NCBI GenBank assembly: GCA_947184155.2
Contig: CAMXCT020005013.1
Location: forward strand, 278,501 to 342,500
Reading direction: 5' to 3'
DNA from: Cladocopium goreaui
Lineage: Eukaryota > Sar > Dinophyceae > Suessiales > Symbiodiniaceae
Length of the DNA stretch: 64,000 nucleotides
Part shown: positions 1,597 through 60,075 of the stretch, one piece after another
Numbering within the stretch: position 1 is the first letter of the stretch
Layout: the number at the start of each line of letters is the position of its first letter
Translations under genes and position numbers: made by a program
Notes under the pieces: model-generated
Told to the model about the DNA's origin: nothing
The model's input: the letters and a program-made list of their open reading frames with translations, nothing else
The model's database searches: none

Positions 1597-3009
1597 CTAC
1601 CTGAGGCACAAACGCTTGCTTCTTTTCAGATCTCCAATCACGTCTGCAAGTGTGGCCCCTGGATGTGCACGACAAACTGAGGCCAAAAGCTGCCCATCAG
1701 GCAAGACAACGCGAAGACTCGGCAGGCAAACGTTCAGTTTACGCGCGATACGCCTGTGAGCATCCCATGCGAGATCAGACCTAAGTAAACTCAAGCATAG
1801 GACTTCTTCCCCGGTCAGACCGGAGAATGTCAGCCGCACTTCATTCTCCTCACGAACAGGATCAAGCTGCAGCACAAGGTCTCTACCTTGCAACGTAGGG
1901 CAAACATAGAACGTCCCTGCTTGAGGCGACGGAATAATACATTCTCCATAAATGTTCTCTCCGCAAGCCACAGCACGGCCGTCGCTTCGGAGAAGTGCTG
2001 TATGGCTCCCTCCAGCAGAAACCTGGGTGTACGACACTCCATCATCCAAGGGCGGGATGTTGCATTGTCCAAATGCATTGTTTCCACAAACCACAACAAA
2101 TCCATCACTTCGGAGAAGCGCTGTATGGCTCCCTCCAGCAGAAACCTGGGTGTACGACACTCCATCATCTAAGGGCGGGATGTTGCATTGTCCGTATCTA
2201 TTGCATCCGCAAGCACCAGCACAGCCATCACTTCGGAGAAGCGCTGTATGACTCCCTCCTGCAGAGACGTGGGCGTATGACACTCCCTCGTCCAAGGGCG
2301 GGATGTTGCACTGTCCATATCTGTTGTTTCCACAAACCACAACAAATCCATCACTTCGGAGAAGCGCTGTATGGCTCCCTCCAGCAGAAACCTGGGTGTA
2401 CGACACTCCATCATCTAAGGGCGGGATGTTGCATTGTCCGTATCTATTGCATCCGCAAGCACCAGCACAGCCATCACTTCGGAGAAGCGCTGTATGACTC
2501 CCTCCTGCAGAGACGTGGGCGTATGACACTCCCTCGTCCAAGGGCGGGATGTTGCACTGTCCATATCTGTTGTTTCCACAAACCACAACAAATCCATCAC
2601 TTCGGAGAAGCGCTGTATGGCTCCCTCCAGCAGAAACCTGGGTGTACGACACTCCATCATCTAAGGGCGGGATGTTGCATTGTCCGTAGTCATTGCATCC
2701 GCAAGCCACAGCACAGCCATCACTTTGAAGAAGCACTGTATGACCCCCTCCCGCAGAAACGTGGGCGAATGACACTCCATCGTCCAAGGGCGGGATGTTG
2801 CACTGTCCAAATATATTGCTTCCACAAACCACAGCACAGCCATCACTTTGGAGAAGCGCTGTATGGCTCCCTCCAGCAGAAACCTGGGTGCACGACACTC
2901 CATCATCTAAGGGCGGGATGTTGCATTGTCCGTATGTATTGCATCCGCAAGCCACAGCACAGCCATCACTTTGGAGAAGCACGGCGTGAGTATCGCCTGC
3001 CGAAACCAT
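1597..3009 (-). CDS. RCC1-like tandem-repeat protein with ubiquitin-like tail
   Basis: The frame is open for 470 residues. Residues 1 to about 368 are nine near-identical 41-residue units with the core VSAGGSHTALLRSDG, a CGxNxYGQCNIPPLD stretch and DDGVSYTQ. This is the RCC1/beta-propeller pattern; seven to nine blades usually form one propeller. Residues about 369-470 include LRVVLPDGQLLAS, a segment typical of the ubiquitin-like tail on this dinoflagellate class. Function is unknown beyond a likely protein-binding scaffold. The ATG at 3009 is preceded in frame by TGA three codons upstream with no AG between, which favours this start. An acceptor just inside the frame (ggcag|GCGATAC) is an alternative. 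The last codons read CTCAG|GTAG, so a donor could remove the stop and extend the protein. The units are homogenised at DNA level with a 246-bp (two-unit) super-period. Confidence 0.85.
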   Translation of the reverse strand: MVSAGDTHAVLLQSDGCAVACGCNTYGQCNIPPLDDGVSCTQVSAGGSHTALLQSDGCAVVCGSNIFGQCNIPPLDDGVSFAHVSAGGGHTVLLQSDGCAVACGCNDYGQCNIPPLDDGVSYTQVSAGGSHTALLRSDGFVVVCGNNRYGQCNIPPLDEGVSYAHVSAGGSHTALLRSDGCAGACGCNRYGQCNIPPLDDGVSYTQVSAGGSHTALLRSDGFVVVCGNNRYGQCNIPPLDEGVSYAHVSAGGSHTALLRSDGCAGACGCNRYGQCNIPPLDDGVSYTQVSAGGSHTALLRSDGFVVVCGNNAFGQCNIPPLDDGVSYTQVSAGGSHTALLRSDGRAVACGENIYGECIIPSPQAGTFYVCPTLQGRDLVLQLDPVREENEVRLTFSGLTGEEVLCLSLLRSDLAWDAHRRIARKLNVCLPSLRVVLPDGQLLASVCRAHPGATLADVIGDLKRSKRLCLR

Positions 3010-13598: not shown

Positions 13599-13705
13599 TA
13601 CCATCTGGTTATTTAACATAGCCATGGAAAATGGACCATTTATAGATGGTTTACCTATTTAAAATGATGGATCTTTCCATGGCTATGTTAAATAACCAAA
13701 GGGTA
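13599..13705. mobile_element. palindromic MITE family 1, copy
   Basis: Starts TACCATCTGGTTATTTAACA and ends TTAAATAACCAAAGGGTA. Both ends carry one change from the common sequence. The arms gccatgg/ccatggc pair well. Confidence 0.85.
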
Positions 13706-19054: not shown

Positions 19055-19159
19055 TACCCTCCGGTTATTTAACATAGCTATGGAAAATGGTCCATTTATA
19101 GTTGATTTACCCATTAAAAATTGTGATTTTCAATAGCTATGTTAAATAACCAGAGGGTA
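19055..19159. mobile_element. palindromic MITE family 1, copy
   Basis: TACCCTCCGGTTATTTAACA to TTAAATAACCAGAGGGTA, placed inside a TA microsatellite, as expected for a TA-targeting element. Confidence 0.85.
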
Positions 19160-47317: not shown

Positions 47318-47612
47318 TGTAATAACATGTAATAAAATGTAATAAAATGTAATAAAATATGTAATAAAATGTAATAGAGTGTAATAAGATGTAATAAAAT
47401 GACATAAAATGTAATAAAATGGTATAAAATGTAATGACATGTAATAAAATGCAATAAAGTGTAATAAAATGTAATAAAATGTAATAAAATGTAATAAAAT
47501 GTAATAAAATGGAATAAAATGATATAAAGTGTAATAAAATGTAATAAAATGATATAAAATGGAATAAAATGATATAAAGTGTAATAAAATGATATAAAAT
47601 GTAATAAGCCAT
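47318..47612. repeat. GTAATAAAAT short-period tandem repeat
   Basis: About 28 units of 10-11 bases (gtaataaaat, gatataaaat, gaataaaat). The minus strand stays open as a run of FITFYYILLH-like words, purely from the repeat. Confidence 0.9.
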
Positions 47613-48894: not shown

Positions 48895-49065
48895 CACGTC
48901 GTTTGACCAGGCACCTGTGGGTTGGCTTCTGTGGCGAACGAATGGCCAACATCGCACACGACAAGGCGGCGAAAACTCGGGAAAAGCTGTGCCAGAAAAT
49001 CGCGGAAGCCGGTTTGTTGCGTTTCTGGGAACTTCTGGATGGGCCTGATCTGTTCATTTTCGGGT
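48895..49065. CDS. coding-like patch, strand uncertain
   Basis: The plus strand reads MANIAHDKAAKTREKLCQKI then AEAGLLRFWELLDGPDLF. The minus strand reads FRRLVVCDVGHSFATEANPQ between acceptor ttcccgag|TTTTCG and GT donor (CCCACAG|GTGCCT). Both are plausible. Context favours minus, composition favours plus. Confidence 0.3.
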
Positions 49066-49394
49066 GGAGCCTACCCAAAAAAAATGTATGTAGTGCCCGT
49101 TGGGGCCATCATGAATAGTTGAAACCACCAAGCAGGTATCCAAATTTTCACGTGTTTTGACCACTTTAGCAAAGCTTGCCCCCCCAAAAAAAGGTCCACT
49201 CAGTAACTGCTCAGAAACTATGGTGAAATATCCCAATCATAGTTCAAATAAGTCATCTACAATCAGTGACGTCGAATATCTTCGGATCTAACCGCATGCT
49301 GGATATTGTGTCATACATTACACAGGCCCAAAGAATTTAACAATTTGTTTCCCCTAGGGCCACCATCGTTTACACATCCAAGTCAGCCACGTTG

Positions 49395-50625: not shown

Positions 50626-50676
50626 CTGCAAACCGCCAAGACTTTCATGGAGTTCGTCCAAGCCGTAGTACTTGGC
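50626..50676 (-). CDS. KCTD-like BTB/T1 gene, exon 5
   Basis: Acceptor tggacggtag|GCCAAG and GT donor (GTTTGCAG|GTCCGG) bound exactly 17 codons in phase 0: AKYYGLDELHESLGGLQ. This completes the T1 fold, matching the EAxYYxLxxL element that closes the domain in KCTD and Kv proteins. The preceding exon ends with LLLQE, so the junction restores LLLQEAKYYGLDEL. An overlapping plus-strand frame ending at 50772 is thereby judged spurious. Confidence 0.75.
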
Positions 50677-51274
50677 CTACCGTCCAAATTCAGATCACAA
50701 GATCCGGAACATTTTGGCCTACACCAAAATGCCGACAGTTTCCATTTTTCTTCGGCAAATCCATCATGGTGAAACACGAGTTTCCACTGATTTATGGCAA
50801 GAGAATGCCATGCTGAAGCTCCAAAGCGATCAGCCTATGTATATATATATATATACTGTATATGCATTCGCACAATAGATGTATGAAAATAGAGATACAT
50901 GCATGGGCGTGTGTGTGTGTGTATTGGTTTGCGTCTGTTCATGTCTACCTTAATTGACTAGTATCCGGTATACGATTGTATTGATTCATGTCATTCATGT
51001 CCTATCCAATTTACTAAAAGTGCTTGGTTTGCTTATCTGCAGTGGAGCTGCTGGACCTCGAAAAAATCCCATTCATATCACCTATATCTCCCGCTACATT
51101 TCATTAAACATATTTAAGCCATATTCAACCGATTTTAAACCATATTGAACCATATTTTTTTAAAAATATAAACGATATCAAACCAATTCAAACCATATTC
51201 ACCCATCATTTTTCATGATTAACCTTGATTAAACCAACCTGTTCCATCTCCATCTCCGATGTATCAAAAACTGC

Positions 51275-51363
51275 CTCCTGCAGCAGCAGGGTCCGATCCG
51301 CCCGCGAGAGGCCCAGAGGGAGCCGCTCGTCGCGGAGGTAGTTCAAGACGTGGCGGAAGAGGC
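51275..51363 (-). CDS. KCTD-like BTB/T1 gene, exon 4
   Basis: Acceptor cgacgtcgag|GCCTCT and GC donor (CTGCAGGAG|GCAGTT) bound 89 bp: two bases and 29 codons LFRHVLNYLRDERLPLGLS then RADRTLLLQE. LFRHVLNYLR is the hallmark of the T1/BTB_2 domain. Phase 0 exit. Confidence 0.85.
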
Positions 51364-52130
51364 CTCGACGTCGGACGTTTGAAAAATGGGGCTTGAAATG
51401 AGGGACATGATGGGTTTCAACGGAGGTTTTTTAATGGTTAACTGGGTTTTAAGTTTTGAATGGCTTTGAAAAAAGGAGTCTAATGGGCTGCAGTGTTCTA
51501 ATGGGGGTTTGATTGCCAATTCGATGTTGAAAACAAAAAACCATTGGGTGTGGGTCAAAGTTGGTGGGTCATTAATAGAAATGCACTGTAGATGGGGTTG
51601 TTTAATAGAAGTGTGTTCTCTTACTGGATTGTGCAAAGCCTCTAAAAATGGGAAGCTTAAAGTTTAAGTCATGAAAAAAGGGATTTCACCTGGGCTGATT
51701 TTCCAAGAAAAATGACATATACTGGAAACCATGGTTTCACCTAGGGGTACACTATCACATTGCCACTAATGAGCCAAAATTGTAATTGCAATGTACCATC
51801 AATTTGTCCAAAATATGTCCAGTATTAGCGAAAGGATTGAACCAAGTTTGTCTGGGGTGGTGATAATTACACGATATTACACCCCCAACAAAATCAACAA
51901 AAAAGAAAAGTAAAATCCGACTTAAATAATGAGCTAAACCCAATAATAAACCACCCCGAATTGGTGGTTGCTATTGGGTATACCTCTATTTGGGATTGAT
52001 TTGAAAGGACGCCCTGATCTTTTTCTGGATGGTCTATTGGGTTAAAAAAACACATGCGTGGCACATGGAATCCCATTAGAATCCCATTAGAATCCCATTG
52101 GAATCCATCGCCACACTGTCGCCGAGCATC

Positions 52131-52187
52131 GCCCGTCCCGGTCGATGCAGAGACGCGAGTTCTGGTCCCAGCTGCTCGGAAATTCTC
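52131..52187 (-). CDS. KCTD-like BTB/T1 gene, exon 3
   Basis: Acceptor caagaacag|GAGAAT and GA donor (GACGGGC|GATGCT) bound 57 bp: two bases, 18 codons EFPSSWDQNSRLCIDRDG and one base. Joined to exon 4 it yields IDRDGRLFRHVLNYLR, the canonical T1 motif. The alternative GG donor three bases earlier gives IDRDGLFRH and is less likely. Confidence 0.8.
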
Positions 52188-52784
52188 CTGTTCTTGTTGG
52201 CTTCAATGGCTCTTTTAATGGGTTTTTAAAGTTTTAACAGGTGTCAATTGGTTTTAATGGTGGTTCAATTGGTGTGAATGGGGTTTTAATATGTTTTAAT
52301 GAGATTTCAATGGTGTTTTAGTGGCTAACTAGATGAGGTGTCAACAGTTGCAATGGTACAAACTATATTTCAATGGCTTGGTTTTGTTTGGAGTTGGTTT
52401 CTAAGCTTGCTTGGCGAAATCTTCAATCTAAATCCATTCATGTGGGTGATTTATCAATCCAAACTTGTCATGCATCACACTGCAGGTTGATGGCCCCAGT
52501 GCTTCCACACAAATATGAAAGTCATAAGATGGTGTATACCCCAACTGCCTATGGTTATATATAACCAGAATATAACCAGAATAATTGAATAACCCCCTTG
52601 TTAGTTTAGTTTTATAATGTGTTATAAACCAACTTAGCAGACTGGGGCACCCGCCAGGACCGCGATGTGATGTAAAATGACCATTGTTTACAGCACCCCA
52701 CAGACAGAAAGGTAAAACTGAACGAAGATAATTAGTGCTAAATATATCTAAATATTACCTGTTGTTTTATCTTTAAAAAAATGC

Positions 52785-52862
52785 ACCCTCTGGTTATTTA
52801 ACATAGCTATAGATTATGTACTTATTAAAAGTGATTATTTTCCATGGGTATGTTAAAGAGCC
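52785..52862. mobile_element. MITE family 1, right-truncated copy in KCTD intron 2
   Basis: Left arm caccctctggttatttaaca, inner arm ttccatgggtatgttaaaga. The last 12 bases of the right end are gone. It lies wholly inside the intron between exons 2 and 3. Confidence 0.65.
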
Positions 52863-53173
52863 ATGCCACTTCTTAGTTGCAGCCAAATCTTTAGAGGTTC
52901 TGTGACCTACTCGCGTCGACCGGTGGCGTTTGTGGTGGATTTTCATGGCAAACCTCAGATACCCAACCAAATACAAAATATGACTAGTTATTTTTGTTTG
53001 CATATGGCTATCATATTTTTATAATATATATATATAATGTATATATATATATAATGTATATATATATATAATGTGTATAAATATAAATGTGCATATACGT
53101 ATGTTGTTTTCCGGGTATATGGCTTAAATAGATATACTAAACATGTTTTTCAGCGAGGAAACAGTGAACTCAC

Positions 53174-53250
53174 CGGCATCTCCCAGGACCTGGAGCCAGC
53201 CAGTTTTCGCACCTGAAAGCATCTTGGCCAGGACAGAGCTGGGATATTGC
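53174..53250 (-). CDS. KCTD-like BTB/T1 gene, exon 2
   Basis: Acceptor ctgagccaag|GCAATA and a consensus GT donor (GATGCCG|GTGAGT) bound 77 bp: one base, 25 codons QYPSSVLAKMLSG then AKTGWLQVLGDA, and one base. YPSSVLAKMLSG matches the FPxSxLxxMxSG element of the domain. Both junctions are in phase. Confidence 0.85.
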
Positions 53251-53302
53251 CTTGGCTCAGGTGACATCGCCCAGACCCAGGGCCGGCCCTAATCACTATA
53301 TA

Positions 53303-53407
53303 TACCCTCTGGTTATTTAACATAGCCATGGAAAATGGCCCATTTATAGATGGTTTACCTATTAAAAATGGTGATTTTCCATGGCTATGTTAAATAACCA
53401 GATGGTA
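53303..53407. mobile_element. palindromic MITE family 1, copy in KCTD intron 1
   Basis: TACCCTCTGGTTATTTAACA to TTAAATAACCAGATGGTAA, nearly perfect arms (aacatagccatggaaaatgg against ccatggctatgtt). It lies just inside the 3' end of intron 1 and abuts the tandem array at 53440. Confidence 0.9.
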
Positions 53408-53439
53408 AATGGATCCACGAACAAAATCACAAAAATCCA

Positions 53440-54325
53440 TATAAATCACTATACATCAATGGATAAACCACTATAAACCCCTGTCAATCCCTATCAATCA
53501 ATCGGTGAATCATGGTAAATCACTATAAATCCCATCAATCAATGGATAAATCACTATAAACCCGTGCCAATCCCTATCAATCAATCGATAAATCACTATA
53601 AATCCCATCAATCAATGGATAAATCACTATAAACCCGCGCCAATCCCTTTCACTCAATGCCCAAAAAATATAACCCCATGTCAATCCCTATCAATCAATG
53701 GATAAATCACTATAAACCCCTCTCAATCCCTGTCAATGTGAATCAATGAATGGTTTAAATCAATATAAATCCCTCTCAATCCCTATCAATCAATGGATAC
53801 TGTAAATCACTATAAACCCCTCTCAAACCCTATCATTCAATGGATAAATCACTATAAACCCTGTCAATCTCTATCAATCAATGGATGAATCACTATAAGC
53901 CCGTCTCAATCCCCATCAATCAATGCATAAATCACTATAAACCCTGTCAATCCCTATCAACCAATGGATAAATCATGATAAATCAGAAATCCCTGTCAAT
54001 CCCGTTCAATCGATGGATAAATCACTATAAACCAAATGTCAATCCCTATCAATCAATGGATAAACCACTTTAAACCCCCATCAATCCCTATCAATCAATG
54101 GGCAATCACTATAAACCCCTGTCAACCCCTATAAATCAATGGATAAATCATTGTAAATCCCATTTCAAGCCCTATCAATCAATGGACAAATCACTTTAAA
54201 CCCCATCAATCCCTATCAACTAATCACTAATCGCTATAAGCCCTCAATCCCTATCAATCAATGGATAAATCATGATAAACCCCTGGCAATCCCGTTCAAT
54301 CAATGGATAAATCACTATAGTATAG
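53440..54325. repeat. tandem array in KCTD intron 1
   Basis: About twenty imperfect units, usually 40-45 bp, built from aatcaatggataaatcacta, taaacccc and tgtcaatccctatc. Unit length varies through indels. No coding potential. Confidence 0.9.
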
Positions 54326-54561
54326 GGCATACACTTAAACACAAAATGCTTTCCATTTGTTTATACACTTAGAACACGTTTCCTCTGCGCGCAAAATGTG
54401 CCCTCTCTGTTCTTAGTGTATGACTCAGAACATGTTCTAAGTGTATCACTTAGAACAGGAGCCGAACATGTTTTCCAAAATGTCAATCTATAGTCTATAG
54501 TGTATGTCCTTAAGGTGTTATAAGCCCCTGTCAATCTATAGATCACCCCTCGCTGTCCAGC

Positions 54562-54635
54562 CGCTCCAGCGTCTTTCGCAGGGTCCAGTAGCACTCGCCG
54601 CCCACGTTGAGGCAGACCACGTCGCTTTGCGCCAT
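54562..54635 (-). CDS. KCTD-like BTB/T1 gene, first coding exon
   Basis: Starts at ATG 54635-54633 and runs 24 codons plus two bases to a GC donor (GGAGCG|GCTGGA): MAQSDVVCLNVGGECYW then TLRKTLE. The VCLNVGG...TLRKTL pattern is the opening beta-strand and helix of T1/BTB_2 (KCTD and Kv channel tetramerisation) domains. In KCTD proteins this domain forms oligomers and often recruits Cullin-3. No channel segment is seen in the exons found, so a soluble KCTD-like protein is favoured. The joined five exons give about 117 residues, a full domain. In the genomic frame TGA follows soon after the donor, which supports splicing there. Confidence 0.85.

Positions 54636-54924: not shown

Positions 54925-54928
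<4 letters not shown>

Positions 54929-54965
<37 letters not shown>
54929..54965. repeat. CAT trinucleotide repeat
   Basis: Twelve consecutive cat units. Produces a Met run on the minus strand and an Ile run on the plus strand in chance frames. Confidence 0.95.
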
Positions 54966-54967
54966 GA

Positions 54968-55242
54968 CCCTTATTGAAGATCTTCAATGAATGTAGAAGT
55001 TTAACGGGGGTGGGAGAATTAAACCCATATTTAAGATCTTCAATGAATGCAGAAGTTTAACGGGGGTGGGAGAATTAAACCCTTATTGAAGATCTTCAAT
55101 GAATGTAGAAGTTTAACGGGGGTGGGAGAATTAAACCCTTATTGAAGATCTTCAATGAATGTAGAAGTTTAACGGGGGTGGGAGAAATAAACCCTTATTG
55201 AAGATCTTCAATGAATGTAGAAGTTTAACGGGGGTGGGAAAT
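54968..55242. repeat. 56-bp tandem repeat, five units
   Basis: Units start at 54968, 55024, 55080, 55136 and 55192, each with cccttattgaagatcttc, aatgaatgtagaagttt and aacgggggtgggagaa. Spacing is exactly 56 bp and units are nearly identical. The gggggtggg box and terminal cccttat recall the 34.8 kb array. Confidence 0.95.
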
Positions 55243-55249
55243 TTATATT

Positions 55250-59950: not shown

Positions 59951-60075
59951 TGCCCTCTGGTTATTTAACATAGCCATGGAAAATGGACAATTCATAGATG
60001 ATTTTCCTATTAATACCTCCATTTATAGGTGATTTTCCATGATTTTCCATGGCTATGTTAAATAACCAGAGGGTA
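59951..60075. mobile_element. palindromic MITE family 1, copy
   Basis: TGCCCTCTGGTTATTTAACA to TTAAATAACCAGAGGGTA. A local duplication (gattttccatgattttcca) lengthens the right arm. The left flanking TA has changed to TG. Confidence 0.85.

Follow-up and report, generated by a model that had tools for sequence, protein, structure and literature searches.

The T1 domains of KCTD proteins form oligomers, and the proteins themselves act as adaptors. For dinoflagellates, a passage of one published study discusses expansions of BTB-MATH proteins (PMC8110479). As to gene structure, Table 1 of a report covering Cladocopium goreaui gives donor frequencies of 36.6% for GT, 43.6% for GC and 19.8% for GA, with AGG at 96.1% of acceptors, and figures quoted in the same source, for which Iso-Seq of this species was also generated, are a mean exon length of 120 bp, a mean intron length of 839 bp and a genome of 1.2 Gb in 6843 scaffolds with 44.4% GC (PMC9412976). 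For Symbiodiniaceae, values quoted in PMC11453091 put GC or GA donors at 25–74%, and those quoted in PMC11114475 put GC content at about 51% in Effrenium and the S1 group and at 45.8% in the S2 group of symbiotic lineages.

The sequence analysed here is a stretch of 64 kb (C5010:278501–342500, hereafter the window, within which positions are counted) from an assembly of 1.166 Gb in 6202 contigs. Its GC content of about 42%, varying between 0.37 and 0.50 per 2 kb, fits best with the lower-GC group. With a probability of about 93%, we regard a locus on its minus strand as the N-terminal portion of an ordinary nuclear protein-coding gene, of the Symbiodiniaceae type, in which five exons specify one complete KCTD-type BTB/T1 domain within about 102 residues, and whose product would be an oligomeric adaptor. 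Exon 1 (54565..54635, 71 bp) begins with ATG, reads MAQSDVVCLNVGGECYWTLRKTLE and has a GC donor; exon 2 (53213..53250, 38 bp) reads QYPSSVLAKMLSG, shares its last codon with exon 3 and has a GT donor; exon 3 (52131..52187, 57 bp) reads EFPSSWDQNSRLCIDRDG with a GA donor; exon 4 (51275..51363, 89 bp) reads RLFRHVLNYLRDERLPLGLSRADRTLLLQE with a GC donor; and exon 5 (50626..50676, 51 bp) reads AKYYGLDELHESLGGLQ and leaves in phase 0 at a GT donor. RNA splicing, which we infer in this form, would join them across four introns of 598–1314 bp (1314, 1025, 767 and 598 bp in order), all of which lie within the T1 domain and would use the donors (GT/GC/GA) and acceptors (AG|G) customary in the lineage.

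The first-pass annotation had proposed five minus-strand patches of 74, 77, 57, 89 and 51 bp, and these are present exactly as proposed, together with the gc, gt, ga, gc and gt donors and with AG followed by G at 4/4 internal acceptors; read on the minus strand, the patches join in consistent phase into 348 bp, or 116 codons, free of stops. We kept exons 3–5 unchanged, while exons 1 and 2 are better ended further inwards, judging from BTB_2 scores and spliced alignment as described below. The same annotation held that simple ORF calling would prefer a plus-strand frame over exon 5; a plus-strand frame of 109 aa does span this exon, but a wrong-frame stop-to-stop frame on the minus strand is longer (129 aa). 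Its suggestion that the splice sites are odd was not upheld, because Symbiodiniaceae genes normally use GT/GC/GA donors and AG|G acceptors according to the figures in PMC9412976. The locus carries just this combination of donors and acceptors, and it shares with the tabulated C. goreaui genes the donor classes, the AGG acceptor and exon and intron lengths of similar order, the exons of 38–89 bp being shorter than the 120-bp mean in that source. Neither the dinoflagellate spliced leader (0 matches at up to 3 mismatches within the window, which for one locus carries little weight) nor any Rfam family (0 matches at gathering scores across the window) was found.

An in-frame TGA precedes the ATG of exon 1 with no AG in between, so that exon 1 cannot reach further upstream, and most likely no other coding exon precedes it. 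Five copies of a 56-bp tandem unit (54967–55243, 95% matches) lie about 330 bp before the start codon, adjoined by a CAT run at 54925–54965. At the other end, alignable homology stops at DEL in exon 5, and the last residues and the donor are placed on the basis of the frame and of an in-frame TGA shortly downstream. The exons have 53–70% GC against 36–40% for the introns. The GC3 of the joined exons is 81%, which is not a lineage-wide standard because the two other frames measured, one on contig C5927 and an RCC1 frame in the window, each have 46%. The latter encodes, in a single frame, an RCC1-repeat protein of 470 aa (1597–3009, minus strand; Pfam RCC1_2 in 9 stretches), which lies on a 123-bp tandem repeat and is mirrored on the plus strand by a 374-aa frame. 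As for the introns, a degenerate minisatellite with 42/83-bp units (53424–54319) fills most of intron 1, which also contains one copy (53308–53402) of a MITE-like repeat, short and palindromic, whose ends read CATGGCTATGTTAAATAACCAGA; further copies are at 13604–13700, 19060–19154 and 59956–60070, one end is in intron 2 (52789–52811), and other single ends occur elsewhere. At up to 3 mismatches, 13 such ends were counted in the 64 kb, against 0 expected.

Pfam, PDB and the null distribution of the spliced alignment concordantly bear out the claim that five small exons, whose donors are a mix of GC, GT and GA, encode a complete KCTD-type T1 domain. Against Pfam PF02214 (BTB_2; profile length 94, cut-off 21.4 bits), the frame as initially joined, for which such a match had been predicted, gave 56.7 bits (E=3.2e-15) over profile positions 1–90 of 94, and the best exon set, with 71, 38, 57 and 89 bp for exons 1–4, gave 65.7 bits (E=4.8e-18) over the same positions. 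When the initial frame was used as a query against PDB, KCTD16, BACURD3, KCTD1, BACURD1 and KCTD9 led with E-values from 2.3e-11 to 7.2e-9, the best solved structure being that of KCTD16 (6i0q, E=2.3e-11). The T1 domain of Kv channels was rejected as the closer relative, because its best PDB match with this query reached only E=0.0026 and ranked behind KCTD. The locus shares with KCTD16 and other KCTD proteins the whole T1 domain, the LNVGG opening, the IDRDG.LF core, YLRD and the EA.Y end, whereas its domain is divided among five small exons, GC and GA donors included. A BTB match is also shared with the Kelch protein of PDB 4yy8 (E=1.7e-8), presumably Plasmodium K13 with BTB plus propeller. 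By analogy with KCTD proteins, the product would most likely oligomerise through T1 into a ring-shaped assembly that holds partners together as an adaptor, and it may perhaps serve as an adaptor of Cul3.

Within the same genome, a protein on contig C5927 belongs to the BTB_2 family as well (E=5.4e-11), but its 503 aa lie in a single frame that is uninterrupted from stop to stop, the domain occupying residues 91–178; its identity to the initial frame is 40% over residues 4–108, with E=0.068 only. A whole-genome search for the BTB_2 family found this protein alone and missed the locus itself, as would be expected with such small exons. Searching the genome with the initial frame listed nine matches, namely five to the locus itself, three to exons 3–5 on contig C5207 and one to C5927; this search detects single exons and scores the best candidates only, and further family members may escape it.

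For the exon boundaries, we used a purpose-written spliced aligner (BLOSUM62, donors GT/GC/GA, acceptors AG|G, three phases) to which exon positions were not supplied, with a 4.3-kb minus-strand target and the BTB sequence of KCTD16 as the query, and in addition we built 16 combinations of splice variants, scoring 7/16 with Pfam plus one with a 50-bp exon 2. The KCTD16 query recovered the same five patches with a score of 109. The most likely end of exon 1, judging from sequence comparison, is 54565 rather than 54562 as initially placed: this donor 3 bp further inwards raised the BTB_2 score from 56.7 to 60.1 bits with a 77-bp exon 2 and from 62.4 to 65.7 bits with a 38-bp exon 2, and it was also the end chosen by the aligner. 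For exon 3, the GA donor surpassed a GC donor 3 bp further on (end 52128) by 5.6 bits in Pfam and by 10 points in spliced alignment, and for exon 4 the GC donor surpassed a GT donor 3 bp further on by 3.1 bits in Pfam. The non-canonical donors are thus backed by homology, although GC may be used instead of GA at exon 3.

Where exon 2 ends is ambiguous, because all three candidate donors preserve the phase: GT at 53213 (38 bp), GC at 53201 (50 bp) and GT at 53174 (77 bp), which with the corrected exon 1 gave 65.7, 63.2 and 60.1 bits on BTB_2, respectively. Spliced alignment placed the end at 53201 with the KCTD16 query and at 53213 with the C5927 paralogue, and one of these two ends is most likely correct; the loop insert of 13 residues in the initial frame would then most likely be intron. 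It is rather unlikely that the longer, 77-bp exon 2 is genuine, either alone or as an alternative form, in which case T1 would have the 13-residue insert and the main explanation could still hold: its donor gtgagt at 53173 is in phase and both exon and insert are open, but neither query protein selected it and its use costs 5.6 bits on BTB_2. We consider very improbable a further idea, in which the three in-phase donors (GT, GC and GT for 38, 50 and 77 bp) would be used in turn so that one loop of T1 differs by 0, 4 or 13 residues, the mixed donor classes thereby tuning the choice of oligomer or partner.

Downstream of the domain, a weak candidate for exon 6 (48915..49070, minus strand, 156 bp) runs from AG|G to CAG|GT, enters and leaves in phase 0 and is compatible in phase, yet 99 of the 831 AGG acceptors on the same strand open frames as long or longer, and it is therefore a lead only; it had no Pfam family over the cut-off and no PDB match. 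Five proteins were scanned with Pfam, four being candidate downstream pieces by themselves and the fifth one of these fused to the domain; the fusion alone exceeded a cut-off, and the family was BTB_2. Exon-wise Pfam scans downstream of T1 gave no match over the cut-off for a KCTD C-terminal region or a Kv transmembrane domain, and these scans also miss the BTB domain itself. Unspliced frames with X at stops (minus strand 35.3–64.0 kb, plus strand 45.0–54.9 kb) gave nothing over the curated Pfam cut-off, a negative that is uninformative because the BTB exons included as a control were likewise blank; the four matches listed, to DUF6203, Rubredoxin, DUF3246 and Hydrophobin_2, each fell below their cut-off. 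Eight downstream candidates from codon log-odds trained on two ORFs were discarded, since in the known region this method gave only two stretches, both in the wrong frame. A tandem array of about 29 copies of the 10-bp unit TGTAATAAAA occupies 47318–47607.

A second copy of the window region from 52814 to 36520 is present on contig C5207 (20,715 bp), with long pieces 93–98% identical, and this may be either a segmental duplicate or a variant of the assembly. The homology begins at window position 52814, inside intron 2 and at a repeat end; the 832 bases of C5207 that precede this point yielded no match to exon 2, and exon 1 would fall past the contig end. Exons 3–5 are identical in both copies, and so is everything from about 51.8 to 49.4 kb including introns. 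Within 52.8–48.6 kb the strongest difference lies directly after exon 3. We rejected the copy as a test of constraint on exons 4 and 5, because the neighbouring introns are equally identical there. The exon 6 candidate differs between the copies by two amino-acid changes and one silent codon change, from which it gains no support. That downstream exons have not been established, and that the partial copy has exons 3–5 with exon 2 missing from the bases examined, could be taken to favour a pseudogene, in which the domain frame is intact and the gene is silent or broken downstream. This is improbable in our judgement, because all five exons of the locus are open and in phase with a strong domain match and its ATG sits within GCCGCCATGG, while the state of the C5207 copy bears little on this locus.

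Returning to the five-exon gene, its alignment score exceeds chance clearly. With the KCTD16 query, the maximum among 500 dinucleotide shuffles was 53, and among 56 window tiles on both strands, four of which are minus-strand tiles overlapping the locus, none of the remaining 52 scored above 44. The C5927 paralogue, which retained four exons only, scored 82 against 51 for shuffles and 46 for the 52 non-locus tiles. That unrelated patches were assembled by chance, as the free choice of the initial boundaries might suggest, has a negligible probability, since 0/500 shuffles and 0/52 non-overlapping tiles approach the observed score. The five-exon chain was stable at intron penalties of 6, 10 and 14 with AGG acceptors and lost exon 5 at 18 and 22, and when acceptors were relaxed to plain AG, exon 3 began elsewhere or small additional exons arose.

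The set of donors allowed has a direct effect on whether such a gene can be found. When the aligner was restricted to GT and GC donors, the score decreased to 99, and with GT alone it fell to 77 and a false chain was built in which exons 3 and 5 were lost; gene callers that accept only GT–AG introns can therefore miss genes of this kind. The biology of the gene appears ordinary for its apparent lineage and its domain belongs to a known family, and the locus is a clean example of how GT–AG-only gene callers can miss dinoflagellate genes.
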